Virus record (IMG/VR): IMGVR_UViG_3300036768_000165
Coordinates: 1-32,523 of that record
Length of the DNA stretch: 32,523 bases
Origin: a virus
Strand: one strand, 5' to 3'
How positions within the stretch are numbered: position 1 is the stretch's first letter; each line of letters begins with the position of its first letter. Position numbers and translations under genes: made by a program. Shown here one piece after another: positions 16,257 through 25,062 of the stretch. The notes beneath the pieces were generated by a model. It did not search any database, was not told where the DNA came from, and saw only the letters and a list, made by a program, of their open reading frames with translations.

Positions 16257-16448
16257 TTGCAGCTGGATGCTGCTGTCGTCATTGAAAGCCCTGATCTCAT
16301 CCTCGTCGCACTCGGCGCAGAGGAAGACGGTGTATTCTGTCCCGTCGTCATTTGTCCAGACGACAGGCCACGTCGGCCGCGCGCCGCAATAGGCGCAGGG
16401 CTCGTGGGACGCCCCTTCTGGCAGTGATGTTTGTATGTGTTCCATCAT
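16239..16448 (-). CDS. Small zinc-ribbon protein
   Basis: A 69-residue protein starting at the ATG that overlaps the VWA stop by four bases (MMEHIQTSLPEGASHEPCAY); a second ATG is one codon later. Two CxxC pairs (CAYC at about 18-21 and CAEC at about 44-47) mark a zinc ribbon, with VVWTNDDGTEYTVFLCAECD between them. The C-terminus is acidic, then ends QLQPAPRG. It immediately follows the VWA gene and may belong to the same functional unit. Family unknown. Confidence 0.72.
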   Translation of the reverse strand: MMEHIQTSLPEGASHEPCAYCGARPTWPVVWTNDDGTEYTVFLCAECDEDEIRAFNDDSSIQLQPAPRG

Positions 16449-18016
16449 GCCCTCCTTGCAAGACTTTCCACCGCCCCGGCAATGTCACCATCGGCGATGA
16501 GGGTGTAGGCGCACCAAGACGTATCTGACGGCGCGATGTCGGGGTTGGGGTTGGCCCACAGCACCCGGATTCCGGCCTTTGCAGCCGCGCGATAGCCGGC
16601 CGTGCCATGGGCATCGCCAAAGACCAGCATGTGGCTGATCCCGGCTGCCTTGACGCGCGCCCAGCCGTCAACGTCATCACCGTAGCCGACGATGGGTGGA
16701 AGCTTGGAGAAGCGCTTGGTGTCGCGCCCGACGATCTCTGACGGGTCGAGCGACCCTTCGGCATTAGCGTAATCGGAGCTGAGTGCTGGCGTCTGGGCGG
16801 CGTAGAAGCCCTTATACCGCATGGCCAGGGCCTCAGCGATACCCCATGTGCGGGCTGCGATCCACTCGCATGACCCGCTCACGTCATAGATGACAAGCAG
16901 GCCATTGACAGCAGGCGTGTCCCTGCGCATGCGGTGGAGCCGCACCTGGTGGGTGACGAGCTCGCGCACCAAGCGCTTACCATCCCAAAGCGGGCACGGC
17001 TCTTGGCGTGTGGCGTCGGCCATGAGACGAGACAGGGCGCGGACAACGCGCGCCAATTCAGAGACAGCGGCCAGCGTTGGCCGGTCGATTGATGCACGGG
17101 CGCCGCCTTCTTCTGTGACGGCAGCCGCAAAGGATTCTGTGCCATCGGATGACTGATCATCGGCCCCCGGCGAGGCGCTTGCATCGGCGGTTTCTTGCCG
17201 ATGGTCGCACTCCTCACCGGGTGCCGCGTCAGCCCCGGAGCCCATCCCGGACGCGGGCACCTCATCGGCTCCGCGATCACCCCCCTGGTCAGCCCCATGC
17301 TGGGCATCATCCCCGGGCTCAGGCGTGCCACCATGAGACGACTCGCCCGACGTGCCGCCATTGCTGGCGTCATCGCCGGCACGCTCGATCCCATGGCCAG
17401 GGTTGGGCGTGTCTCCGGTAGTGCCCGCATTGCAGGCGCTATCGGAGCCAGCCAGGTCTTCAGCCGACGTTTGAGCAGCGTGCTGGCACTCGCCGCTATT
17501 CCCGTCGCCGCCGTGGCTGTCGGCGGTGTCATTGGTGTGCGCCCCCTCACTGATCGGGGCGTCCTGGCCGACATTGTGGTCGGTACTGTCGGCTTCCTGG
17601 CGGTCGGACTCACCAGCAGCGTGCTGCTGCCTGTCATGCTGCCTGTCAGGATTGCCAGCAGCATGCTGGCGGATGGCAGCCCACACGTCCGCAGCGGACG
17701 CATCTGGACCGTACTGGCTGATGAGCCAGTCGAGAGCCCTCTCGGCGAGCCCGATTTGCCAATGGCTGGCTGGTACCTGCGGAATATCGTGCAGCAGGTA
17801 CAGCGGGCGGATGGACCCGGCGGCCACCATGAGCTCGGTGGCGTTAATCGCACAGTGTGCCGAGCTTTGGAACTCGTCCCACCCGTGGCGCACAGACGCG
17901 CGCCATTCTGCGACCTGCCTGCGCAGATCGCGCAGCCGGGTATCATCCCACTCCCAATTGTGGGAGCCCGTGCGCGCCCACACGGGGCTTGGCGGTGGGA
18001 GGCGGCGGATATTCAT
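16445..18016 (-). CDS. VWA-domain protein with long disordered linker, CobT/CoxE-like
   Basis: A 523-residue protein in three parts. Residues 1-115 are a helical N-terminal domain. Residues about 116-300 are a low-complexity linker rich in Asp, Gly, Ser, Ala and His. Residues about 310-523 form a von Willebrand A-type domain, with LLVIYDVSGSCEWIAARTWG giving the metal-ion-dependent adhesion site D378-x-S380-x-S382. The upstream overlapping gene encodes a MoxR-type AAA+ ATPase. VWA plus MoxR pairs act as chaperone or chelatase motors. The long acidic linker before a C-terminal VWA domain is the architecture of CobT/BchD subunits. No CobN-like chelatase is present, so the substrate here is unknown. 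Confidence 0.82.
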   Translation of the reverse strand: MNIRRLPPPSPVWARTGSHNWEWDDTRLRDLRRQVAEWRASVRHGWDEFQSSAHCAINATELMVAAGSIRPLYLLHDIPQVPASHWQIGLAERALDWLISQYGPDASAADVWAAIRQHAAGNPDRQHDRQQHAAGESDRQEADSTDHNVGQDAPISEGAHTNDTADSHGGDGNSGECQHAAQTSAEDLAGSDSACNAGTTGDTPNPGHGIERAGDDASNGGTSGESSHGGTPEPGDDAQHGADQGGDRGADEVPASGMGSGADAAPGEECDHRQETADASASPGADDQSSDGTESFAAAVTEEGGARASIDRPTLAAVSELARVVRALSRLMADATRQEPCPLWDGKRLVRELVTHQVRLHRMRRDTPAVNGLLVIYDVSGSCEWIAARTWGIAEALAMRYKGFYAAQTPALSSDYANAEGSLDPSEIVGRDTKRFSKLPPIVGYGDDVDGWARVKAAGISHMLVFGDAHGTAGYRAAAKAGIRVLWANPNPDIAPSDTSWCAYTLIADGDIAGAVESLARRA

Positions 18017-18840
18017 GCCGCCCTCCTGCGCGCCGCCACGATCTCGCCCCAGATGGACGCCACCAGGCGGCGCACCTCCTCGGTGTCCACCGCCATGGCC
18101 CCTTCGTCAGTGCGCGCGGCCCAGGCCCGCAGGGTTTCGGCCACGGCTTCAGCCGATGATGCGACAACCCACGCCTCGTGGCAGGCATGGGCGATTTCCT
18201 GAAGCGAGAGGGCTTCGTTGCCCTCCGCCCGCGCGACAATCTGGCAGGCGCGGTCCATCAGGCGGACCACGCCGATGGGAGCACCGCTACGGGCGGCGGC
18301 AAGTTCCACCCGCAGGGCTTCTGGAAGCGGCTGCATGCGCAGCCGACGGCACCGACGCAGCAAGGCGTCGGTGTGTGGACGTTGCCCGTTGCTGGTGATG
18401 ACCACCAGCACGCGGCTCAGGTCGGTCTGTAGGTGCTCGCCGGGTTTGACGGGCACCCGGCCGGATTGGAGCCAGTCGAGGAGCAGGGCCTCCACAGACT
18501 CCGGGGCCTTGTCCAGCTCGTCCAAACAGACGACGACGAGCTGGTGTTTGTGGCTGGCCTCTGCGGCCAGGGCGAGGATACCGGGCTGGTGGACGTGTGT
18601 GGCGTCCCCGGCCACGGCGGCCGGGACGTTGATCCCGGCGAAAAGGTCGTCCGCCCCGCTCCAGGAGTGGAGCAGGGCGTACAGGAAATGCCCGCCGTGC
18701 TCGCGGGCAATCGCTTCCGCGAGCGCGGTCTTGCCCGTCCCGGGCGCGCCGGTGACGAGAAGCGCCCGGGCGGAATGCCCTGGCTGGGCGAGGAGAGAGG
18801 CCACCGCTTGCGAGGTGGCGGTGGAATGGCGGTACTGCAT
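18013..18840 (-). CDS. MoxR/CobS-like AAA+ ATPase
   Basis: A 275-residue AAA+ protein. Walker A is TGAPGTGKTALAEAIA (P-loop residues 31-38). Walker B is LVVVCLDELDKAPES (D107, E108). Sensor 1 is VVITSNGQRPHTDALLRR (about 146-163), followed by an arginine-rich stretch (RRCRRLR) that could give the arginine finger. Residues about 49-93 (GHFLYALLHSWSGADDLFAG and onward) match the segment after the P-loop in MoxR/CobS-type proteins. The ATG at 18840 overlaps the previous stop by one base, and its own stop overlaps the VWA start by four. It likely forms a ring that works on a substrate chosen by the VWA partner. Confidence 0.88.
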   Translation of the reverse strand: MQYRHSTATSQAVASLLAQPGHSARALLVTGAPGTGKTALAEAIAREHGGHFLYALLHSWSGADDLFAGINVPAAVAGDATHVHQPGILALAAEASHKHQLVVVCLDELDKAPESVEALLLDWLQSGRVPVKPGEHLQTDLSRVLVVITSNGQRPHTDALLRRCRRLRMQPLPEALRVELAAARSGAPIGVVRLMDRACQIVARAEGNEALSLQEIAHACHEAWVVASSAEAVAETLRAWAARTDEGAMAVDTEEVRRLVASIWGEIVAARRRAA

Positions 18841-19964
18841 CACCGCTCCCCCTTTCTTGCCGAGCAACGGCTGGCTAGGTAGAAGGGCCAGTCGTCGCGG
18901 CGGATTTCGCCGGTGATGGCGATCTTGAGATCGATCGCCTTGATGCCGTAGACCGATCCGTCCTCGGCGAGCACAGCACCGAGGACGGCACCCGAAGGAG
19001 CGCCGACGACATCTTCCGTGGTCGGGCGCTCGACAACGACGCCGGCCACCTTGGTGGCCAGGGCGTCAAAGGCGGCGACGATGATGCCGTCCGCCTCGGG
19101 GATGATGGCGGGCTTGGGTTTAGGCTGGGCATGGGCGGGCACCGCCTTGCAGGCGGGCTGCCCGGAGGGGGTGACGTGGGTGATCTCCACCCACTCACCG
19201 GGTCTGACGGCAGTGGCCCCGAACCGGTCGGTGCCCGCCCAAATCCAGTGCTCGTGCCCGTCCACGAGCACCTGGACTTGGCCGGCGCGGTTGCCACCAC
19301 GCTTGCCGGCCCGTTCCACGCGGGCAACAGTGCCCACGGGAAGGGCCTCACGGGCGGCGGCCATCTCCGCCTCGCGGCGGGCGCGCTCCTCGGCGAGGAA
19401 CCGCGCCCGCTCCTCCCGCAAGGCCCGCTCTTTGGCCTTGCGGGCGTCGATCTGCGCCCGGAGGCGAGCCTGCCGGGCCTCCTCGTGCCTGGCCATTTCG
19501 GCCAGCACGGCTTGGCGGGCCAGCTTGGCCCGCTCCGGGTCAACTGCCCGGGCCGCCTCAAGGGCTGCGGCGTCCGGGGGTGTGAGCTTGCCCCCGAACA
19601 CGGCGCGGGCGAACGCGCCGTGCAAGGAGGCATCTTCTTCCGCCTCCTTGGCCAAGGCGGCCAAGGAGCGCATGGCCAGCCAGTCACGGCGGGCGCCGGC
19701 CTCAGCGGCCAGCACCCACCGGTGGCGGGCCACGGCGGCCCACATCTCGCGGATGCGGGCCGTGTCCTCCTCGCCGCCTTCCTTGGCGGCTGGAGTATCA
19801 TCGGCGGGGACGTACAGCTCAGCCCCGCCGTCGATCTTCTCGAGGAGCCGAAGCCCCTCGAGAAGGAGGTACTCGCGCTCCTCGTCAGGAGCGCGGATGT
19901 CCTGACTGAGGCGATCAAGCGCCTCAATCAGGCGGTCTCGGTCGATGTGGGTGATGTCTGCCAT
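18840..19964 (-). CDS. Large coiled-coil protein in the MoxR-VWA operon
   Basis: A 374-residue protein. GGGAGGAG precedes the ATG at 19964, which overlaps the upstream stop by one base. Residues 1-150 are mostly helical. Residues about 150-208 form a strongly charged Arg/Glu/Ala coiled coil (ARLRAQIDARKAKERALREE). Residues about 209-262 look like a small beta-barrel (VGTVARVERAGKRGGNRAGQ, then VQVLVDGHEHWIWAG), perhaps SH3- or OB-like. A lysine/proline hinge (KAVPAHAQPKPKP) leads to a C-terminal domain (288-374). No family is recognised. Its position directly before MoxR suggests it is a substrate adaptor or third component. Confidence 0.72.
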   Translation of the reverse strand: MADITHIDRDRLIEALDRLSQDIRAPDEEREYLLLEGLRLLEKIDGGAELYVPADDTPAAKEGGEEDTARIREMWAAVARHRWVLAAEAGARRDWLAMRSLAALAKEAEEDASLHGAFARAVFGGKLTPPDAAALEAARAVDPERAKLARQAVLAEMARHEEARQARLRAQIDARKAKERALREERARFLAEERARREAEMAAAREALPVGTVARVERAGKRGGNRAGQVQVLVDGHEHWIWAGTDRFGATAVRPGEWVEITHVTPSGQPACKAVPAHAQPKPKPAIIPEADGIIVAAFDALATKVAGVVVERPTTEDVVGAPSGAVLGAVLAEDGSVYGIKAIDLKIAITGEIRRDDWPFYLASRCSARKGER

Positions 19965-20241: not shown

Positions 20242-20469
20242 TCACATCAGACCGGCGACGGCCTGCTCAGGTGTGGACGCCTGCCGCACAATGCGCGGCA
20301 GGCCGGTTTCGTCGGCCGACTCAGCGTCGGCAACGAACCACTGGACTGAGGATCCCCTGGTATGCACCGCGTAGAGGGCATACCGGGAGAACTCCCCGAA
20401 GAGGAGCTTATCGCTGGCGAGCTTGCCAGCGAGCTGGGGGTTATTTTTTTCGGAAGAGGGGAACTTCAT
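20242..20469 (-). CDS. Hypothetical first gene of the early minus-strand operon
   Basis: A 75-residue protein if it starts at the ATG at 20469, six bases after a repeated leader element containing CTGGAG; an upstream in-frame ATG at 20541 would lie in the promoter. The start is MKFPSSEKNNPQLAGKLASD. The second half is VHTRGSSVQWFVADAESADE, then GLPRIVRQASTPEQAVAGLM. It looks like a small alpha/beta protein. Being first behind a strong promoter with an operator-like palindrome, it is expected to be expressed early and strongly. Family unknown. Confidence 0.62.
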   Translation of the reverse strand: MKFPSSEKNNPQLAGKLASDKLLFGEFSRYALYAVHTRGSSVQWFVADAESADETGLPRIVRQASTPEQAVAGLM

Positions 20470-20475
20470 AGAAGT

Positions 20476-20504
20476 CTCCAGCCCCAGACTCCCCGAGGCG
20501 CGGG
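20476..20504 (-). repeat. Repeated leader element, copy 2
   Basis: A 29-base copy of the element at 16226-16256. On the minus strand it ends in CTGGAG six bases before the ATG at 20469. In this copy AGTCT and AGACT can pair around GGGGCTGG, placing the ribosome-binding site in a hairpin loop; the other copy lacks that stem. It lies just after the early operator, at the start of the transcript. Confidence 0.7.
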
Positions 20505-20525
20505 AGAACAGCACAACGCTGTTCT
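20505..20525. promoter_or_regulatory. Operator-like palindrome
   Basis: A perfect eight-base inverted repeat, AGAACAGC-N5-GCTGTTCT, centred on 20515. It lies directly downstream of the early minus-strand promoter's -10 box, about where transcription should start. This position suits repressor binding, and the palindrome is too short and lacks a T run for a terminator. The binding protein is unknown; the YdaS/Cro-like protein at 20935 or a repressor outside the window are candidates. Confidence 0.6.
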
Positions 20526-20532
20526 TATCGTC

Positions 20533-20560
20533 ATGATACACTACGCCTTGTAGAAGTCAA
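20533..20560 (-). promoter_or_regulatory. Early minus-strand promoter
   Basis: A sigma70-like promoter on the minus strand: -35 TTGACT (20555-20560) and -10 TATCAT (20533-20538), with a 16-base spacer. The start should fall near 20526, at the edge of the palindrome at 20505-20525. It should drive the minus-strand operon from 20469 down to 9396. Confidence 0.65.
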
Positions 20561-20571
20561 TGGGGCAATGC

Positions 20572-20874
20572 ATGAAACTTTTTTATGGCAACGATAAGCT
20601 GGACTTATGGCCAGCCCACCCATGCCAGGACTGCCCGCGTGCCAAGACGGCTCGCCTGTCAGACGGGCGTGTCGTCTGCACCTGGTGCTTGGCATGGGCC
20701 ATCGATTGCGAGGCGCGCCACCTTCTGGCCCTGCCGCTACGGAAGCGCAGGGAAGCGCTTGAGGCGCGGGAGCGGGTGCGTGGGCGTGAGCAGGTGCAGG
20801 CCCTGAAGGATGCCATGACCCGGATTCACGCGCAGAGGCGGGCGGCGAAGTCTGACACGAAGAAGTGGACTTGA
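20572..20874 (+). CDS. Small phage protein with cysteine pairs
   Basis: A 100-residue protein. I prefer the ATG at 20572, with GGGG six bases before it; another in-frame ATG is at 20560. Two cysteine pairs (CQDC and CTWC) and a later cysteine in CEAR form the N-terminal part. A charged helix follows (RREALEARERVRGREQVQAL, then KDAMTRIHAQRR). I recall similar small phage proteins (C.dCp.A......VC..Cp.W...CEAR..), often near the early regulatory region; the function is unknown. It is the first gene of the rightward early region. Its end overlaps the promoter of the next gene. Confidence 0.68.
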   Translation: MKLFYGNDKLDLWPAHPCQDCPRAKTARLSDGRVVCTWCLAWAIDCEARHLLALPLRKRREALEARERVRGREQVQALKDAMTRIHAQRRAAKSDTKKWT

Positions 20875-20897
20875 TGCTCATGTGGCTAGTGTATAAT
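20871..20897 (+). promoter_or_regulatory. Rightward early promoter
   Basis: A perfect -10 box, TATAAT (20892-20897), with a weaker -35, TTGATG (20871-20876), 15 bases upstream. The -35 overlaps the stop of the previous gene. The likely start is near 20904, followed by the leader and a full AAAGGAGG site before the regulator ATG at 20935. It should drive the replication genes and perhaps the packaging genes. Confidence 0.6.
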
Positions 20898-20934
20898 AGA
20901 ATCGGCTTTCCTGTAACCGTAGAAAGGAGGAAGT

Positions 20935-21222
20935 ATGCAACCGAACCCACGAGAAGCGCTACGCCGAGCCATCGATGTGGCCGGTGGTCTGGCGAAGCTG
21001 GGCAGGATGATTGACTGCTCGATACAGCAGGTTTGGAACTGGACGGTAAGCGGGCGCGCCCCGGTGTCGGCCTGCCCCAAGATCGAGGCTGCCACAGGGG
21101 TTCCCTGCGAAGAGCTGCGGCCTGACATCAATTGGGCCTACATGCGGGAGCAGATGCGTTCGCTCAGCGAACGCTCAACGAACGCTCAACGAACGCTCAA
21201 CGACAATGGGAGCGAACGGTGA
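20935..21222 (+). CDS. YdaS/Cro-like DNA-binding regulator
   Basis: A 95-residue protein with a near-perfect ribosome-binding site (AAAGGAGG). Residues about 5-62 match YdaS-type Cro-like proteins (PF15943): REALRRAIDVAGGLAKLGRM, then IDCSIQQVWNWTVSGRAPVS and CPKIEAATG, giving a helix-turn-helix with V33 and W34 in the recognition helix. It continues with LRPDINWAYM, the usual ending, and then a tail made by the iteron repeats (STNAQRTLN). It probably regulates the early promoters, like Cro. It overlaps the replication gene by four bases. Confidence 0.85.
   Translation: MQPNPREALRRAIDVAGGLAKLGRMIDCSIQQVWNWTVSGRAPVSACPKIEAATGVPCEELRPDINWAYMREQMRSLSERSTNAQRTLNDNGSER
21158..21201 (+). repeat. 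Iteron cluster 1 (11-bp repeats)
   Basis: Three perfect tandem copies of GAACGCTCAAC (21169-21179, 21180-21190, 21191-21201) with a degenerate copy before them (21158-21168, three mismatches). The 11-base period is not a multiple of three, so selection acts on the DNA, not the peptide. The cluster lies at the end of the regulator gene. Confidence 0.75.
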
Positions 21223-22019
21223 ACTACTACCCTTTTCACGTCGGAGATTACGTCGCGCACACCGCACATCTCGAACCGCTCGAAGACTTGGCATACAGGC
21301 GTTTGCTTGATCTGTACTACCTACGAGAGGCCCCAATTCCGCCCGATGTGCAGGAGGCTGCGCGACTCATAAGGATGCGCGAGCACGTGGAATGCGTGGA
21401 ATCCGTGTTGCGCGAGTTCTTCCAGCTTTCGCCAGAAGGATGGAAAAATGCCCGTTGTGACGCGGAGTTAGCGCGCATGAGGGAGAAGCAGGCCAAGGCC
21501 CGCGCGTCGGCAGAGGCATCAGTCAAAGCTCGCAGAACGAACGCTCAACGAACGCTCAACGGACGCTCAACGGACGTTGAGCTACCAACACCAACACCAA
21601 TACCAATACCAATACCAACACCAACACCAGAAGATAAAGATATGCGCACGCAAAGCGTGCGCAATAACGCGCGCGCGAGGCGCGCTGTGGATTGTCCACC
21701 AGACGTTGCCCCGAAGGTGTTTGACGACTGGCTCGAAGTACGCAAGGCCAAGCGCGCAGGCCCGGTGACACAGACCGTGCTGGACGGCATCCGACGAGAG
21801 GCACAAAAGGCAGGCATCACCCTACAGGCGGCCATTGAGCACTGCTGTCTCTCCGGGTGGCAGGGTTTCAAGGCCGACTGGTATCTGAGCCGACCGGCGG
21901 CGAAGGCAGAGAAGTTCGACCCGGTGGCCTACGTCAACCGCAACCGCATCAGCACGCAAAGGATAGACCATGAGCACGAGCATGACATCATCGACATCAC
22001 GCCTGAGCGCTTGGCTTGA
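21219..22019 (+). CDS. DUF1376 replication protein
   Basis: A 266-residue protein starting at GTG 21219, which overlaps the previous stop by four bases; GGGAG lies before it. The N-terminus is a textbook DUF1376 domain: NYYPFHVGDYVAHTAHLEPL, then EDLAYRRLLDLYYLREAPIP, then ARLIRM. The middle contains the second iteron cluster and a (PT/PI) run (PTPTPIPIPIPTPTP). The C-terminus (WLEVRKAKRAGPVTQTVLDG, then CCLSGWQGFKADWY) is a winged-helix-like end seen in phage replication proteins. It is placed where lambda O would be and probably binds the origin inside its own gene. Confidence 0.86.
   Translation: MNYYPFHVGDYVAHTAHLEPLEDLAYRRLLDLYYLREAPIPPDVQEAARLIRMREHVECVESVLREFFQLSPEGWKNARCDAELARMREKQAKARASAEASVKARRTNAQRTLNGRSTDVELPTPTPIPIPIPTPTPEDKDMRTQSVRNNARARRAVDCPPDVAPKVFDDWLEVRKAKRAGPVTQTVLDGIRREAQKAGITLQAAIEHCCLSGWQGFKADWYLSRPAAKAEKFDPVAYVNRNRISTQRIDHEHEHDIIDITPERLA
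21539..21582 (+). repeat. Iteron cluster 2 (11-bp repeats)
   Basis: Two perfect copies of GAACGCTCAAC (21539-21549, 21550-21560), one copy with a single change (21561-21571) and an altered last unit (21572-21582). The last two units create a perfect seven-base inverted repeat, GCTCAAC-N4-GTTGAGC (21565-21582). The cluster lies 370 bases from cluster 1, inside the DUF1376 gene. Confidence 0.75.
21585..21663 (+). repeat. Hexamer repeat and palindrome beside the iterons (candidate origin)
   Basis: Seven tandem hexamers CCAACA or CCAATA run from 21585 to 21626, in the order ACA, ACA, ATA, ATA, ATA, ACA, ACA. A purine-rich, AT-rich stretch follows (21630-21642). Then comes a perfect nine-base inverted repeat, TGCGCACGC and GCGTGCGCA, around AAA (21643-21663). 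Together with the iterons this resembles a lambda-type origin: repeats, then an easily melted segment, within the initiator gene. Confidence 0.55.
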
Positions 22020-22611
22020 GCCGCACCCGAAGCTGGACGGCGTGGCACTGATCGACCACCTTTTCAACCGTCTGGACGGCCTCTATCCGAACCGGTGGCG
22101 GGCCGCCTTTGCCAATCAGCAGGCCATCGACAACTGGCGGGTGGCATGGGCAGAGGGGCTCGCCGAGGAAGGCATCACCTTTGCCGAGATCAAGCGCGGG
22201 CTTGTGGAATGCCGCCGGCGATTCGACTGGCCGCCGTCTTTCGCGGAATTCCTCAAGGCTTGCCGCCCCGCCCCGGACTACGAGGCGGCCTTCCTTGAAG
22301 CCGTGGAGCAGATGCGGCTCCGGGAGGCCGGGCAGGATAGGTGGAGCTCTCCGGCGGTGTACTGGGCAGCCGCGAAGCTGGGGGCTGACCTGTCGGCCCA
22401 CCCCTACGAGGCCATCAAAAACCGGTGGCGGGCAGCGCTAGACGAGGCAATCGAGGGTGTCAGGACGGGCAAGCTGCCGGGTGAGGTGCCGAAGCGCATG
22501 GGGTCACTTCCAGCGCCTGGCCAATGCGCTGTGCCGCCAGAGGTGGCTAGGCAGCGCCTGGCCGAGATCAGGCAGAAGCTGGCCGCCAAGATGACCGGGA
22601 TAGCGGCGTGA
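21970..22611 (+). CDS. Lambda P-like replication protein (helicase loader)
   Basis: A 213-residue protein starting at ATG 21970, overlapping the DUF1376 gene by 50 bases; AAGGA precedes it. The segment FNRLDGLYPNRWRAAFANQQ, then AIDNWRVAWAEGLAEEGITF and RRRFDWPPSFAEFLKACRP, matches the replication protein P family, which loads host DnaB at the origin. A second part (RWRAALDEAIEGVRTGKLPG) is typical of the C-terminal half. It would act with the DUF1376 initiator. Confidence 0.85.
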   Translation: MSTSMTSSTSRLSAWLEPHPKLDGVALIDHLFNRLDGLYPNRWRAAFANQQAIDNWRVAWAEGLAEEGITFAEIKRGLVECRRRFDWPPSFAEFLKACRPAPDYEAAFLEAVEQMRLREAGQDRWSSPAVYWAAAKLGADLSAHPYEAIKNRWRAALDEAIEGVRTGKLPGEVPKRMGSLPAPGQCAVPPEVARQRLAEIRQKLAAKMTGIAA

Positions 22612-22967
22612 GGATACGCGACGAGCACGCCGAGCAGGCGGCGCTCATGAGGTGGGTAGAGCTACAGGCGCGGCGATACCCGGCGCTGGAAATGCTGTTC
22701 GCAATCCCCAACGGCGGCAGGCGGGACGCAGTGACCGGAGCCAGGCTGAAGGCGGAAGGCGTGAAGGCCGGGGTGCCGGACCTTTTCCTGCCCTGGCCAG
22801 CAGGCGGGTGGCATGGGCTTTTCATTGAGCTCAAGGCACCGGGCGGGCGGCCAACGCCAGCACAGCGCCGGTGGATCGAGAGGCTACAGGCGGCCGGATA
22901 CCGGGCGGAGGTGTGCTACGGGTGGGAGGAGGCTGCGGTGGTGCTGAGCGATTACTTGCGCGCCTGA
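22608..22967 (+). CDS. VRR-NUC domain nuclease
   Basis: A 119-residue protein starting at a GTG that overlaps the previous stop by four bases. It consists of one VRR-NUC domain of the PD-(D/E)xK superfamily: AIPNGGRRDAVTGARLKAEG, then GVPDLFLPWPAGGWHGLFIE and LKAPGGRPTPAQRRWIERLQ. The expected catalytic residues are D in GVPDL and E-x-K in IELK. Such small nucleases are frequent in phage replication/packaging regions and may act on branched DNA. The gap to the next gene (22968-23023) holds a TACAAT box (22992-22997) but no convincing -35. Confidence 0.88.
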   Translation: MRIRDEHAEQAALMRWVELQARRYPALEMLFAIPNGGRRDAVTGARLKAEGVKAGVPDLFLPWPAGGWHGLFIELKAPGGRPTPAQRRWIERLQAAGYRAEVCYGWEEAAVVLSDYLRA

Positions 22968-23023
22968 TCATCGGCCAGCGGCCAGTTTTGCTACAATCGG
23001 CGCAAAGGTTTGTGGGGTAATAC

Positions 23024-23527
23024 ATGCCGAGACTGAGCAGAGAGACATGGGCCGACATCCGGGCTGAGAGGGAGGCGGGCGAATCCTTTGATGCGCTGGC
23101 CAAACGATTCGGCGTCAGCAAAACCGCCATCATCAAGCGCTCCAAGCTCGAGGGCTGGAGCAACGGCGAAGACGTTGCCGAGATTATCCGCCGCAAAGTT
23201 ACCGAAAAGGTTACTGGCGTAGTTACCGACGGTGACTTAAAAAAGCGGGTCGCTTCCATCAATGCCGCCACGGAGCGCGCAGCCGAGATCGTCAGACGGC
23301 ACCAAGAGGAGACCAATGCCGCACGCGAAAGGCTGTATGCTGGGCTGAAGGCGCATAAGGCCGCCGTCACCAAGGACGAGAAGGCGCTGGCCTTTGAAGA
23401 CCTGAAGGCGGCCAAGATCGCAGCGGAGGCGCTTGCCATCATCCAGCGGCTGGAGCGGATCAATTGGGGCCTGGAGGAGGCGAATGCGAAGCCGGAGATC
23501 GTGATCGAGAGGAGCTACGGGCGATGA
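23024..23527 (+). CDS. Terminase small subunit-like DNA-binding protein
   Basis: A 167-residue protein with an N-terminal helix-turn-helix (SFDALAKRFGVSKTAIIKRS, about 22-41) like TerS/Nu1-type proteins. A long helical C-terminal part follows (AAEIVRRHQEETNAARERLY, then KAAKIAAEALAIIQRLERIN), suited to ring formation and TerL contact. It lies just before the ParB-methyltransferase and TerL genes. It probably recognises the packaging site. The upstream gap is short and the ribosome-binding site is weak (GTGGGG). Confidence 0.8.
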   Translation: MPRLSRETWADIRAEREAGESFDALAKRFGVSKTAIIKRSKLEGWSNGEDVAEIIRRKVTEKVTGVVTDGDLKKRVASINAATERAAEIVRRHQEETNAARERLYAGLKAHKAAVTKDEKALAFEDLKAAKIAAEALAIIQRLERINWGLEEANAKPEIVIERSYGR

Positions 23528-25062
23528 CATCGTGGATCGCCGACAAGATCGAGCGATGGCCGATCGATAAGCTGATCCCATACGCTCGTAATGCACGCAC
23601 GCACTCGGACGCGCAGGTGGCGCAGATTGCGGCCAGCATCCGGGAATTTGGATTCACCAACCCCGTGCTGATCGACGGCAAAGGCAACATCATCGCCGGT
23701 CATGGCCGCGTGCTGGCGGCCCGCAAGCTGGGGATGCAAGAGGTGCCGTGCATCCGCATGGAACACCTCACCGATGCGCAGCGGCGCGCCTACATCATCG
23801 CCGATAACAAGCTGGCGCTGAATGCGGGGTGGGACGAGGAATTGCTGGCGCTTGAGCTGCAGGAGCTTGCCGACGTGGGGTTTGACTTGGAGATTACCGG
23901 TTTCGACGTTGATGAGCTTTCTGCGCTGCTTGATACAGAGCAAGGCACTGATGGTCTGACCGACCCAGACGATGCGCCAGAGCCAAGGGCAGACGCAATA
24001 ACAAAGCCTGGCGACATCTGGCTGTTGGGCGATCATCGCTTGATGTGTGGGGACAGCACGCGCCATTGCGATGTGGAAAGACTCATGGACGGAAAGACTG
24101 CGCAACTGCTGCACGCCGACCCGCCATACGGCATGGGCAAGGAGAGCGACGGGGTTGCGAACGACAACATCTACGGGCAAGAGCTTGACGCCTTCCAGAT
24201 GAAATGGTGGAAAACCTACCGCCGTTTCTTGGACGACAACGCAAGCGTATATATCTGGGGAAATGCTCCAGATTTGTGGCGTCTTTGGTACGTTGGCGGC
24301 CTTGGCGATTCTGAAAAGCTGGAGCTGCGCAATGAGATCGTGTGGGACAAGAAGGCAATCGCTGGCATGGCATCGCCAGACCTGACGCAATACCCGATTG
24401 CCACAGAGCGCTGCTTATTCTTCCAGCTTGGAAACCAGTTCTTGGGCAATGTCAATTCAAACGACTTTCCGGATAGCTGGGAGCCATTGCGCAGCTATAT
24501 GGAAGCCGAGGCAATGGCAGCCGGGATGAGGCCGGCAGATGTGAAGCGCATCTGCGGTGTCGGCATGTATTCTCATTGGTTCACCAGATCGCAATTCACC
24601 CTGATTCCAGAGAAGCACTACAACAAACTAGCTGCAGCATTTCCAGGACACTTTAAGCGCCCATGGCGAGAACTGAAGGCGGAGTGGGATCGCGTTGGGA
24701 AATGCAGCCCGAGTAGCGAAATAAACGGCGCGCGCAGCTATTTTGACAACACGCACGAGCCGATGCGCGACGTGTGGGAGTTCCCGCGCGTGACAGGAGA
24801 GGAACGCTACGGCCATGCGACACCTAAACCTGTAGCAATGATTGAGCGGGTGATTAAGTCGAGCCTGCGACCCGGCTGTCTGGTTGTCGAGCCGTTCTGC
24901 GGCACAGGAACAACAATCATCGCAGCCGAGAAAACCGGCCGCCGCTGCTACGCGATGGAACTATCGCCGCAATACGTCGATGTTACCGTCCGCCGCTGGC
25001 AGCAATTCACCGGCAAGCACGCAATCCTTGAGGCAACTGGTGAGCCATTCCCTGAAGAATGA
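23524..25062 (+). CDS. ParB-domain fused to adenine/cytosine-N4 DNA methyltransferase
   Basis: A 512-residue protein starting at ATG 23524, overlapping the previous stop by four bases. Residues about 14-100 form a ParB-like domain (RNARTHSDAQVAQIAASIRE, then GHGRVLAARKLGMQEVPCIR). Residues about 163-512 are an amino-methyltransferase: the catalytic motif is DPPYG (199-203), and the SAM-binding motif VEPFCGTGTTIIAAEKTGRR lies near the C-terminus. The middle part between the motifs (about 205-440) is large and less GC-rich; it probably holds the target-recognition domain. It would modify phage DNA, and its ParB part may link it to packaging. Such fusions occur in phages between TerS and TerL. 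Confidence 0.9.
   Translation: MTSWIADKIERWPIDKLIPYARNARTHSDAQVAQIAASIREFGFTNPVLIDGKGNIIAGHGRVLAARKLGMQEVPCIRMEHLTDAQRRAYIIADNKLALNAGWDEELLALELQELADVGFDLEITGFDVDELSALLDTEQGTDGLTDPDDAPEPRADAITKPGDIWLLGDHRLMCGDSTRHCDVERLMDGKTAQLLHADPPYGMGKESDGVANDNIYGQELDAFQMKWWKTYRRFLDDNASVYIWGNAPDLWRLWYVGGLGDSEKLELRNEIVWDKKAIAGMASPDLTQYPIATERCLFFQLGNQFLGNVNSNDFPDSWEPLRSYMEAEAMAAGMRPADVKRICGVGMYSHWFTRSQFTLIPEKHYNKLAAAFPGHFKRPWRELKAEWDRVGKCSPSSEINGARSYFDNTHEPMRDVWEFPRVTGEERYGHATPKPVAMIERVIKSSLRPGCLVVEPFCGTGTTIIAAEKTGRRCYAMELSPQYVDVTVRRWQQFTGKHAILEATGEPFPEE

Follow-up and report, generated by a model that had tools for sequence, protein, structure and literature searches.

The window, as we call the whole 32,523-nt stretch of DNA from an IMG/VR virus record that was analyzed here, very probably contains a lambda-like replication origin inside the gene of its own initiator, a DUF1376 protein unrelated to the O family. 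Comparison of this gene with its relatives revealed repeats, a periodicity at the DNA level, a recurring order of elements, co-variation between a protein motif and the iterons, and recombinant genes. On balance, though with clearly less assurance, we also favor a wider reading in which DUF1376 proteins are a large, unrecognized class of initiators, the end of a long helix supplies a code with five well-populated types and a small sixth, and the swap of a block of about 150 bp switches origin identity.

Two clusters of 11-bp repeats

Exact copies of the unit GAACGCTCAAC start at positions 21169, 21180, 21191, 21539 and 21550, and a copy with one mismatch, GGACGCTCAAC, starts at 21561; a search allowing up to two mismatches gave 19 matches, the 13 remaining ones all carrying two. 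These positions confirm the initial annotation, which had described three perfect repeats at 21169-21201 and two repeats plus a near-match at 21539-21571. Iteron cluster 1 (21169-21201, + strand) consists of three perfect GAACGCTCAAC units located 18-50 bp 5' of the DUF1376 start codon, within the end of a YdaS-like regulator gene (20935-21222, + strand; Pfam PF15943, E 4.2e-16). Iteron cluster 2 (21539-21582, + strand, period 11 bp), which holds the proposed initiator binding sites, comprises two GAACGCTCAAC units, GGACGCTCAAC and an inverted last unit, the inverted repeat GCTCAACGGACGTTGAGC being present at 21565-21582 as the annotation had also described. This second cluster occupies codons 107-122 of 266 in the DUF1376 gene, between the two folded parts of the protein. 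Tandem Repeats Finder, applied to the whole 32.5 kb (score 40), returned five rows, four of them in the origin region: period-11 rows at 21161-21203 (3.9 copies) and 21536-21576 (3.7 copies), an overlapping period-22 row, and a period-6 tract at 21584-21629. The sole row outside that region is an unrelated, perfect 12-bp tandem pair, TGCTGCCTGTCA, at 17625-17648.

The upstream cluster was present in three of 162 genes, namely the window, a relative that is 80% identical (L342), and L011, and was accordingly rejected as a general feature of the system. The register of the units is identical in the window and L342 (-50, -39 and -28 upstream; +320, +331 and +342 in the linker). CTCAAC stands in all three units of both window clusters, and L342 carries CTCAGC in two of its four upstream units and in all three linker units. 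The gene before the DUF1376 gene of L342 encodes an HNH endonuclease, and the cluster follows its stop codon, where it is covered only by small overlapping frames. These observations suggest that cluster 1 has a function at the DNA level in a small lineage, as an operator or as part of the origin, and it may be an operator rather than an origin element. Two separated iteron groups had been put forward as the layout of the origin, a proposal we do not retain given the rarity of the upstream group and its possible role as an operator. In L011, roughly eight class A-like upstream units, counted by eye, extend from about 20 to 105 bp before the DUF1376 start, forming a longer cluster than that of the window.

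The DUF1376 protein and its gene neighborhood

The proposed replication initiator is a DUF1376 (YdaU-like) protein of 266 aa encoded at 21219-22019 on the + strand, and its GTG start codon overlaps the stop codon of the YdaS-like gene. The match to PF07120 (E 3.9e-25, residues 2-85) scores 88.5 bits against a curated Pfam cut-off of 30.1, and a Pfam scan at E <= 0.001 found DUF1376 as the sole family in the protein, with no Rep family. Nine PHROGs match it, the best of them without function and four named 'primosomal protein', and residues 95-230 match PHROG 678, 'replication initiation O-like'. The N-terminal domain (residues 1-109; codons 21219-21545, + strand), modeled alone with AlphaFold2 at a pLDDT of 93.5, is predicted to adopt a winged-helix-like fold with a long helix, residues 78-109, at its end; the linker that carries cluster 2 is a low-confidence portion of the AlphaFold2 model. 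VIA-align of this domain gave rows at modest Z (4.7-6.2), many with winged-helix titles. Foldseek found no match for the model in the PDB at E <= 0.001, and at the same threshold the model matched 42 viral predictions in BFVD, where most of those with a name are DUF1376 proteins. A sequence search for solved relatives of the protein found none, nor did NCBIfam yield names for the five DUF1376 proteins for which they were sought.

A gene for a lambda P-like helicase loader, the proposed partner of the initiator, lies at 21970-22611 on the + strand (PF06992, E 8.9e-12; PHROG 109 'P-like helicase loader', E 1.5e-32) and is followed by a VRR_NUC gene. Among 87 scanned frames 3' of DUF1376 genes (the window's own and 86 of 164 automatically picked frames), matches were to IstB/DnaC-like families in 17, DUF6475 in 14, DnaB_C in six and lambda P in five, a pattern that, for a fair share of these frames, fits an initiator placed 5' of a helicase or loader gene. 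Elsewhere in the window, a gene at 18013-18867 (- strand) encodes an AAA ATPase (Pfam AAA_5, with a weak match to bpMoxR), and it adjoins a gene for a 523-aa protein without a Pfam match (16445-18016, - strand), so that the two perhaps represent a MoxR/VWA-like pair in a phage. A 532-aa frame at 23464-25062 (+ strand), directly 5' of the large terminase gene, appears by eye to fuse a ParB-type N-terminal part to a DNA methyltransferase.

Periodicity in related genes

Relatives were collected because they resemble the window protein or one of a few relatives of it, and are therefore not a random sample; 502 sequences, in which the same contig was often repeated, gave 470 open frames, 295 of them distinct and 282 complete and longer than 150 aa, from which 182 representatives were taken. 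The initial annotation had argued for selection on the DNA from the identical peptide encoded by both clusters. That argument fails, because an 11-bp unit in any frame gives one 11-residue cycle, rotated, per 33 bp, and the shared peptide is thus trivial arithmetic. The claim of DNA-level selection is nonetheless supported by the linkers of the relatives (codons 91-150 of the 182 representatives), whose self-match of 0.371 at a shift of 11 and 0.346 at a shift of 22 exceeds the means of 0.315 and 0.305 obtained in 60 synonymous-codon shuffles that left every protein unchanged. The corresponding z scores are 24.3 at 11 bp, 21.0 at 22, 13.7 at 33 and 7.4 at 44, and the N- and C-terminal parts of the same 182 genes show no series of comparable size. 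Shifts of 7, 21 and 14 are also above the shuffles (z 17.3, 14.1 and 9.4), an excess we attribute to the 7-bp spacing of ACCA words described below.

The proposal had been staked on related phages carrying repeats at this place, and it survives that comparison: an array score of at least 0.5 was found there in 147 of 182 representatives, leaving 35 without such an array, and period 11 beat periods 8, 9, 10, 12, 13 and 14 in a best-array search in only 112 of the 182. Spacing in these arrays is constant and the sequence of the unit differs between groups, which is the pattern that had been anticipated for related phages. Named phages with four-unit scores of 0.65-0.74 include Acinetobacter phage phiAC-1, Vibrio phages 1.003.O and 1.052.A, Bordetella phage vB_BaM-IFTN2, Thalassomonas phage BA3 and phage zth2-2. 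Vibrio phage 340E47.2, Pseudomonas phages AH02 and VB_PaD_phPA-G, and the Rac-like Escherichia phage vB_EcoS-683R6 score 0.50 or less, with class words still visible.

A G-poor tract and a stem-loop follow the array

Cluster 2 is followed by a G-poor tract (21583-21642, + strand; three G among 60 bases), the proposed zone of unwinding or loading. The seven CCAAYA hexamers (21585-21626) and the AT-rich stretch (21629-21644) that had been noted there are both present; the hexamer part has a GC content of 18/42 and is not a classical AT-rich element. The 'nine-base palindrome' described next to it does exist, at 21643-21663 (no strand assigned), though it is properly an inverted repeat, a stem-loop of two 9-bp arms around a 3-base loop, and stem-loops are also seen in relatives.

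Defining an ACCA tract as 36 consecutive bases that include no more than one G and three or more ACCA words, we found such a tract in 87 of 182 relatives, compared with 15.4 (SD 3.3, ten rounds) in synonymous shuffles, and its mirror version on the coding strand in 0 of 182. The words are mostly spaced by 7 or 6 bases, and in 51 of the 87 genes they fall in every one of the three reading frames, which argues that the DNA, not one peptide, is being kept. Within 75 bases 3' of the tract, 35 of the 87 genes have a perfect stem of 6 bp or more, against a mean of 10 and a maximum of 15 in shuffles; three control windows taken from these genes gave counts of 6, 7 and 9. The stems differ in sequence, and several of their loops read C-TAAC-G or C-TGAC-G (L265, L303, L335, L261), which may represent a recognized loop. 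GC skew, suggested earlier as a check on the origin, was dismissed as evidence: the cumulative curve has a low plateau at 14-20 kb and a minimum at 17-18 kb, away from the site, and it is confounded since gene direction seems, from the ORF list, to switch near 20.5 kb.

Iteron class follows the DUF1376 domain

Iteron classes were assigned to 142 of the 182 representatives from hand-picked exemplars. Class A, to which the window belongs, approximates CGTTSAACG; class F approximates TGCGAACGCA, class B AACCCAGTGG and class D CCCCTATAGC, class C is ATGCCACGGCA, and class E is a small group with ATCTGA and ATCAGAT words. Palindromic units (p <= 0.05) occur in 55% of class A genes and 47% of class F genes; as a general feature these are suggestive for A and F and not for B, C, D or E, and we did not build on them.

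Across 147 genes, iteron similarity was associated with N-domain identity (partial rank correlation 0.236; maximum of 200 permutations 0.086) and not with the C-terminal region (-0.008). Of 691 pairs whose similarity was limited to the N-domain, 71% had like iterons, compared with 6% of the 34 pairs whose similarity was limited to the C-terminus (206 of the 282 genes; pairs non-independent); the figures were 93% for 273 non-independent pairs similar at both ends and 30% for 4846 similar at neither, the last one being raised by the large classes. On trees of the same 72 genes, which were those of the 142 whose C-terminal segment was located by pattern, the N tree called for 12 changes of class and the C tree for 31, shuffles giving a mean of 33.9 and a minimum of 28; a stricter C-terminal pattern retained 32 genes, with 5 (N) and 12 (C) changes. 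The N tree of all 142 genes required 20 changes, as opposed to 68.6 by shuffling (minimum 57). Judged from these comparisons, the repeat class follows the DUF1376 domain and not the C-terminal domain.

A motif at the end of the long helix matches the iteron class

The end of the last helix of the domain carries short motifs of several types: G-x-A/I-S or SAxAS in class A, SA-x-ARW in F, KANKRW in C, GGRPK in B, KGAA-x-RW in D and AAN-x-x-RW in E. The window's own motif, SAEASV (residues 97-102; codons 21507-21524, + strand), is the proposed class A specificity motif on the strength of motif-class agreement in relatives. Among classed representatives that bear a motif, its type and the iteron class coincide in 121 of 121, with patterns written after an alignment had been viewed; no motif matched in 45 of the 182, of which 21 have an iteron class. 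When only words strictly 3' of the motif codons were used, 107 of 137 motif genes could be called (30 were not), and 105 of these agree and two disagree.

With the rule fixed beforehand, a held-out set of 74 loci and 10 named-phage loci gave 49 new genes (40 and 9, respectively), 28 without a motif and 21 with one. Fifteen of the latter were callable and all 15 agree (six F, six A and three B), the other six being uncallable; six of the 15 were named phages whose linkers had been viewed before the rule was set, and the nine unseen genes include two, L578 and L579, that look near-identical. The nearest training N-terminal regions of the 15 called genes are 45-90% identical to them. Pairs at least 50% identical in the domain body (residues 1-76) shared a motif type in 1326 cases and differed in 2450, out of 3776 non-independent pairs; on this comparison, the body of the DUF1376 domain does not settle the class. 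Together, the alignments suggest that a short stretch of protein and its repeat sites change together across relatives. Distant DUF1376 genes such as L556-L562, where listed, have no called class, and known motifs are missing from five of the six, so the rule may apply to just a section of the family.

Recombinant genes and an apparently exchangeable block

Seven pairs of genes of different class with similar C-terminal DNA were compared, and five break at the edge of or inside the ACCA tract, 3' of the iterons (L064/L047, L046/L071, L023/L045, L023/L074 and L008/L017, L023 thus appearing twice); L352/L355 and L006/L030 gave no clear break. Aligned over their length, L371 (class A) and L413 (class D) have a DNA identity of 0.83-1.0 in columns 0-210, 0.23-0.57 in columns 210-360 and 0.73-1.0 in columns 360-600, with lower values beyond, so that a differing block of about 150 bp lies between similar flanks. 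Wing, motif-bearing long helix and iterons all fall in this middle block, and because it includes the wing and the start of the helix, the motif is not singled out. When 215 motif genes were passed through a word filter, five pairs of differing class emerged whose heads and tails were similar, L371/L413 not among them; one of the five is clear, L369 (class A) and L413, with identities of 0.91 in the head, 0.46 in the middle and 0.82 in the tail. In a sample of 90 same-class pairs with head identity of at least 0.8 and tail identity of at least 0.75, the middle was at least 0.69 (median 0.93), and under looser limits (116 pairs) it ranged down to 0.41.

Discussion

From the repeats, the adjoining tract and the neighboring genes we infer binding, unwinding, helicase loading and origin activity at the DUF1376 locus, according to the following model. 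The winged-helix-like domain of the DUF1376 protein, together with its long C-terminal helix, would bind the 11-bp iterons, which are about one helical turn apart, so that all sites face one side. The resulting nucleoprotein complex would open the adjoining G-poor ACCA and AT-rich tract, the C-terminal domain and the neighboring P-like loader would place the host helicase, and the stem-loop would close the origin region. The end of the long helix may help to set the iteron sequence used, with helix end and iterons inherited, and exchangeable, as one cassette. We lean only somewhat toward the claim that the choice of iteron is caused by the helix end; prior viewing of six among the fifteen held-out genes, and an exchanged block wider than the motif, slightly weaken it.

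The same repeats could instead be operators through which the DUF1376 protein regulates transcription or translation of its own and the loader gene, with the origin elsewhere. Cluster 1, 18-50 bp before the start and in the same register in the window and L342 despite different upstream genes, is placed as an operator might be, and the N-terminal domain, as modeled, resembles a winged helix, the kind of fold that regulators often have too. We nevertheless consider this account improbable, as the upstream cluster is confined to three of 162 genes whereas the intragenic array is common, the G-poor tract and stem-loop follow that array in many genes, and helicase or loader neighbors are frequent. 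Still less credible, indeed very improbable, is a functionless minisatellite made by slippage in a disordered linker and tolerated by the protein. The low confidence of the linker in the AlphaFold2 model and the perfect tandem copies in genes such as L038, which look like slippage products, are what such an account would predict, but unit sequence is alike within classes over divergent genes and follows the N-terminal domain, the periodicity rises above synonymous shuffles, and the matching cluster of L342 lies after the stop codon of the HNH gene, covered only by small overlapping frames. The elements that follow the intragenic array might have another role: the G-poor tract and hairpin could act in RNA, for instance as a Rho-use site or a translational pause. 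The tract is indeed C-containing and G-poor on the coding strand, its mirror version is absent from all 182 genes, and 35 of 87 genes have perfect stems of at least 6 bp; set against this, an Rfam scan of 20400-23200 found no family at its threshold, and in lambda ori an AT-rich tract adjoining the iterons is described, in a passage of PMC7466680, as crucial for unwinding. We therefore regard action in RNA as unlikely.

A further alternative questions the code and not the origin: motif and class may agree since they are neighbors in one gene and are co-inherited, with no causal recognition. The motif codons end near the array, running in some class A genes into part of its first degenerate units; the independent changes on supported branches are few (three for class A) and too few for significance; and the wing and the beginning of the long helix also lie within the L371/L413 block. 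As motif and iterons are neighbors, linked inheritance does explain part of the association. That it explains the whole is a tentative possibility which we take seriously but think rather unlikely, given that the same motif recurs in N-domain bodies less than 38% identical (285 non-independent pairs), that motifs differ in most of the pairs with bodies at least 50% identical (the 2450 of 3776 non-independent pairs above, where class agreement restates the 121 of 121), and that arrays which are not read would be expected to decay.

If the origin and its code are as we propose, a role as origin-binding initiator falls to a domain of unknown function that many phages and prophages carry, and both the location of an origin and the class of its binding sites become predictable from sequence. 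Natural pairs of initiator and origin, recombinants included, would offer material for asking how both shift specificity together, and the model, if true, points to a possible reason for coexistence or competition between related phages at the level of replication.

Comparison with known systems

Among the matches listed in a literature search that left most subscription journals outside, no title or start of an abstract reported a DUF1376 origin, and no experiment was found. Papers that mention DUF1376 name it without function in the passages concerned, and none is on an origin by its title.

For lambdoid phages, PMC7466680 places the origin midway through gene O, where the O protein binds the iterons, and calls an AT-rich tract crucial for unwinding. 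The parallel with lambda ori that the initial annotation had drawn, with a DUF1376 protein as initiator, is supported by the mid-gene repeats, the adjoining tract and the P-family loader. In both cases, direct repeats in the middle of the initiator gene precede a G-poor or AT-rich tract, and a P-family loader gene lies directly 3' of the initiator; gene position is similar too, the annotated iterons of lambda (NC_001416) starting at codons 117, 123, 131 and 139 of 299 and spanning codons 117-144. The systems differ in that the N-terminal domain is DUF1376 here and Phage_rep_O in lambda O, that the iterons are 11 bp long rather than 18 bp and vary in sequence among DUF1376 relatives, and that this phage has an extra upstream cluster. 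Lambda O matches only PF04492 and TIGR01610 and the window protein only PF07120, and hhalign of the two proteins found no kinship (E 0.69). As Pfam, NCBIfam and hhalign do not place the protein in the O family, we propose a lambda-like working without O-family membership.

The Rac prophage of E. coli, which a supplementary legend in PMC3945230 says possesses an active origin, oriJ, has ydaS, ydaT and ydaU (DUF1376) followed by ydaV, a putative ATP-binding protein. A literature search on the map position of oriJ found no passage placing it in ydaU. The setting of ydaU resembles that of the window gene, and TGTTCAAAC-like words occur at the right place in the ydaU linker. Unlike the window, Rac lacks a lambda P-like loader and has a more degenerate array below the four-unit score; a Rac-like ydaU (L505) fails the four-unit search, with 0.47 at period 11 and 0.54 at period 8.

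Iteron-controlled plasmid origins combine a Rep protein, iterons and an operator that bears repeats. Like them, the DUF1376 locus has direct repeats spaced by about one or two helical turns, a predicted winged-helix initiator and a second cluster near the start of the initiator gene; unlike them, it carries the array inside the coding sequence of the initiator, for which Pfam gives DUF1376 and no Rep family. Relative to these known systems, the new points here are a layout like that of lambda around an unrelated initiator, iterons of 11 bp that come in several sequences, and an apparently exchangeable specificity block.
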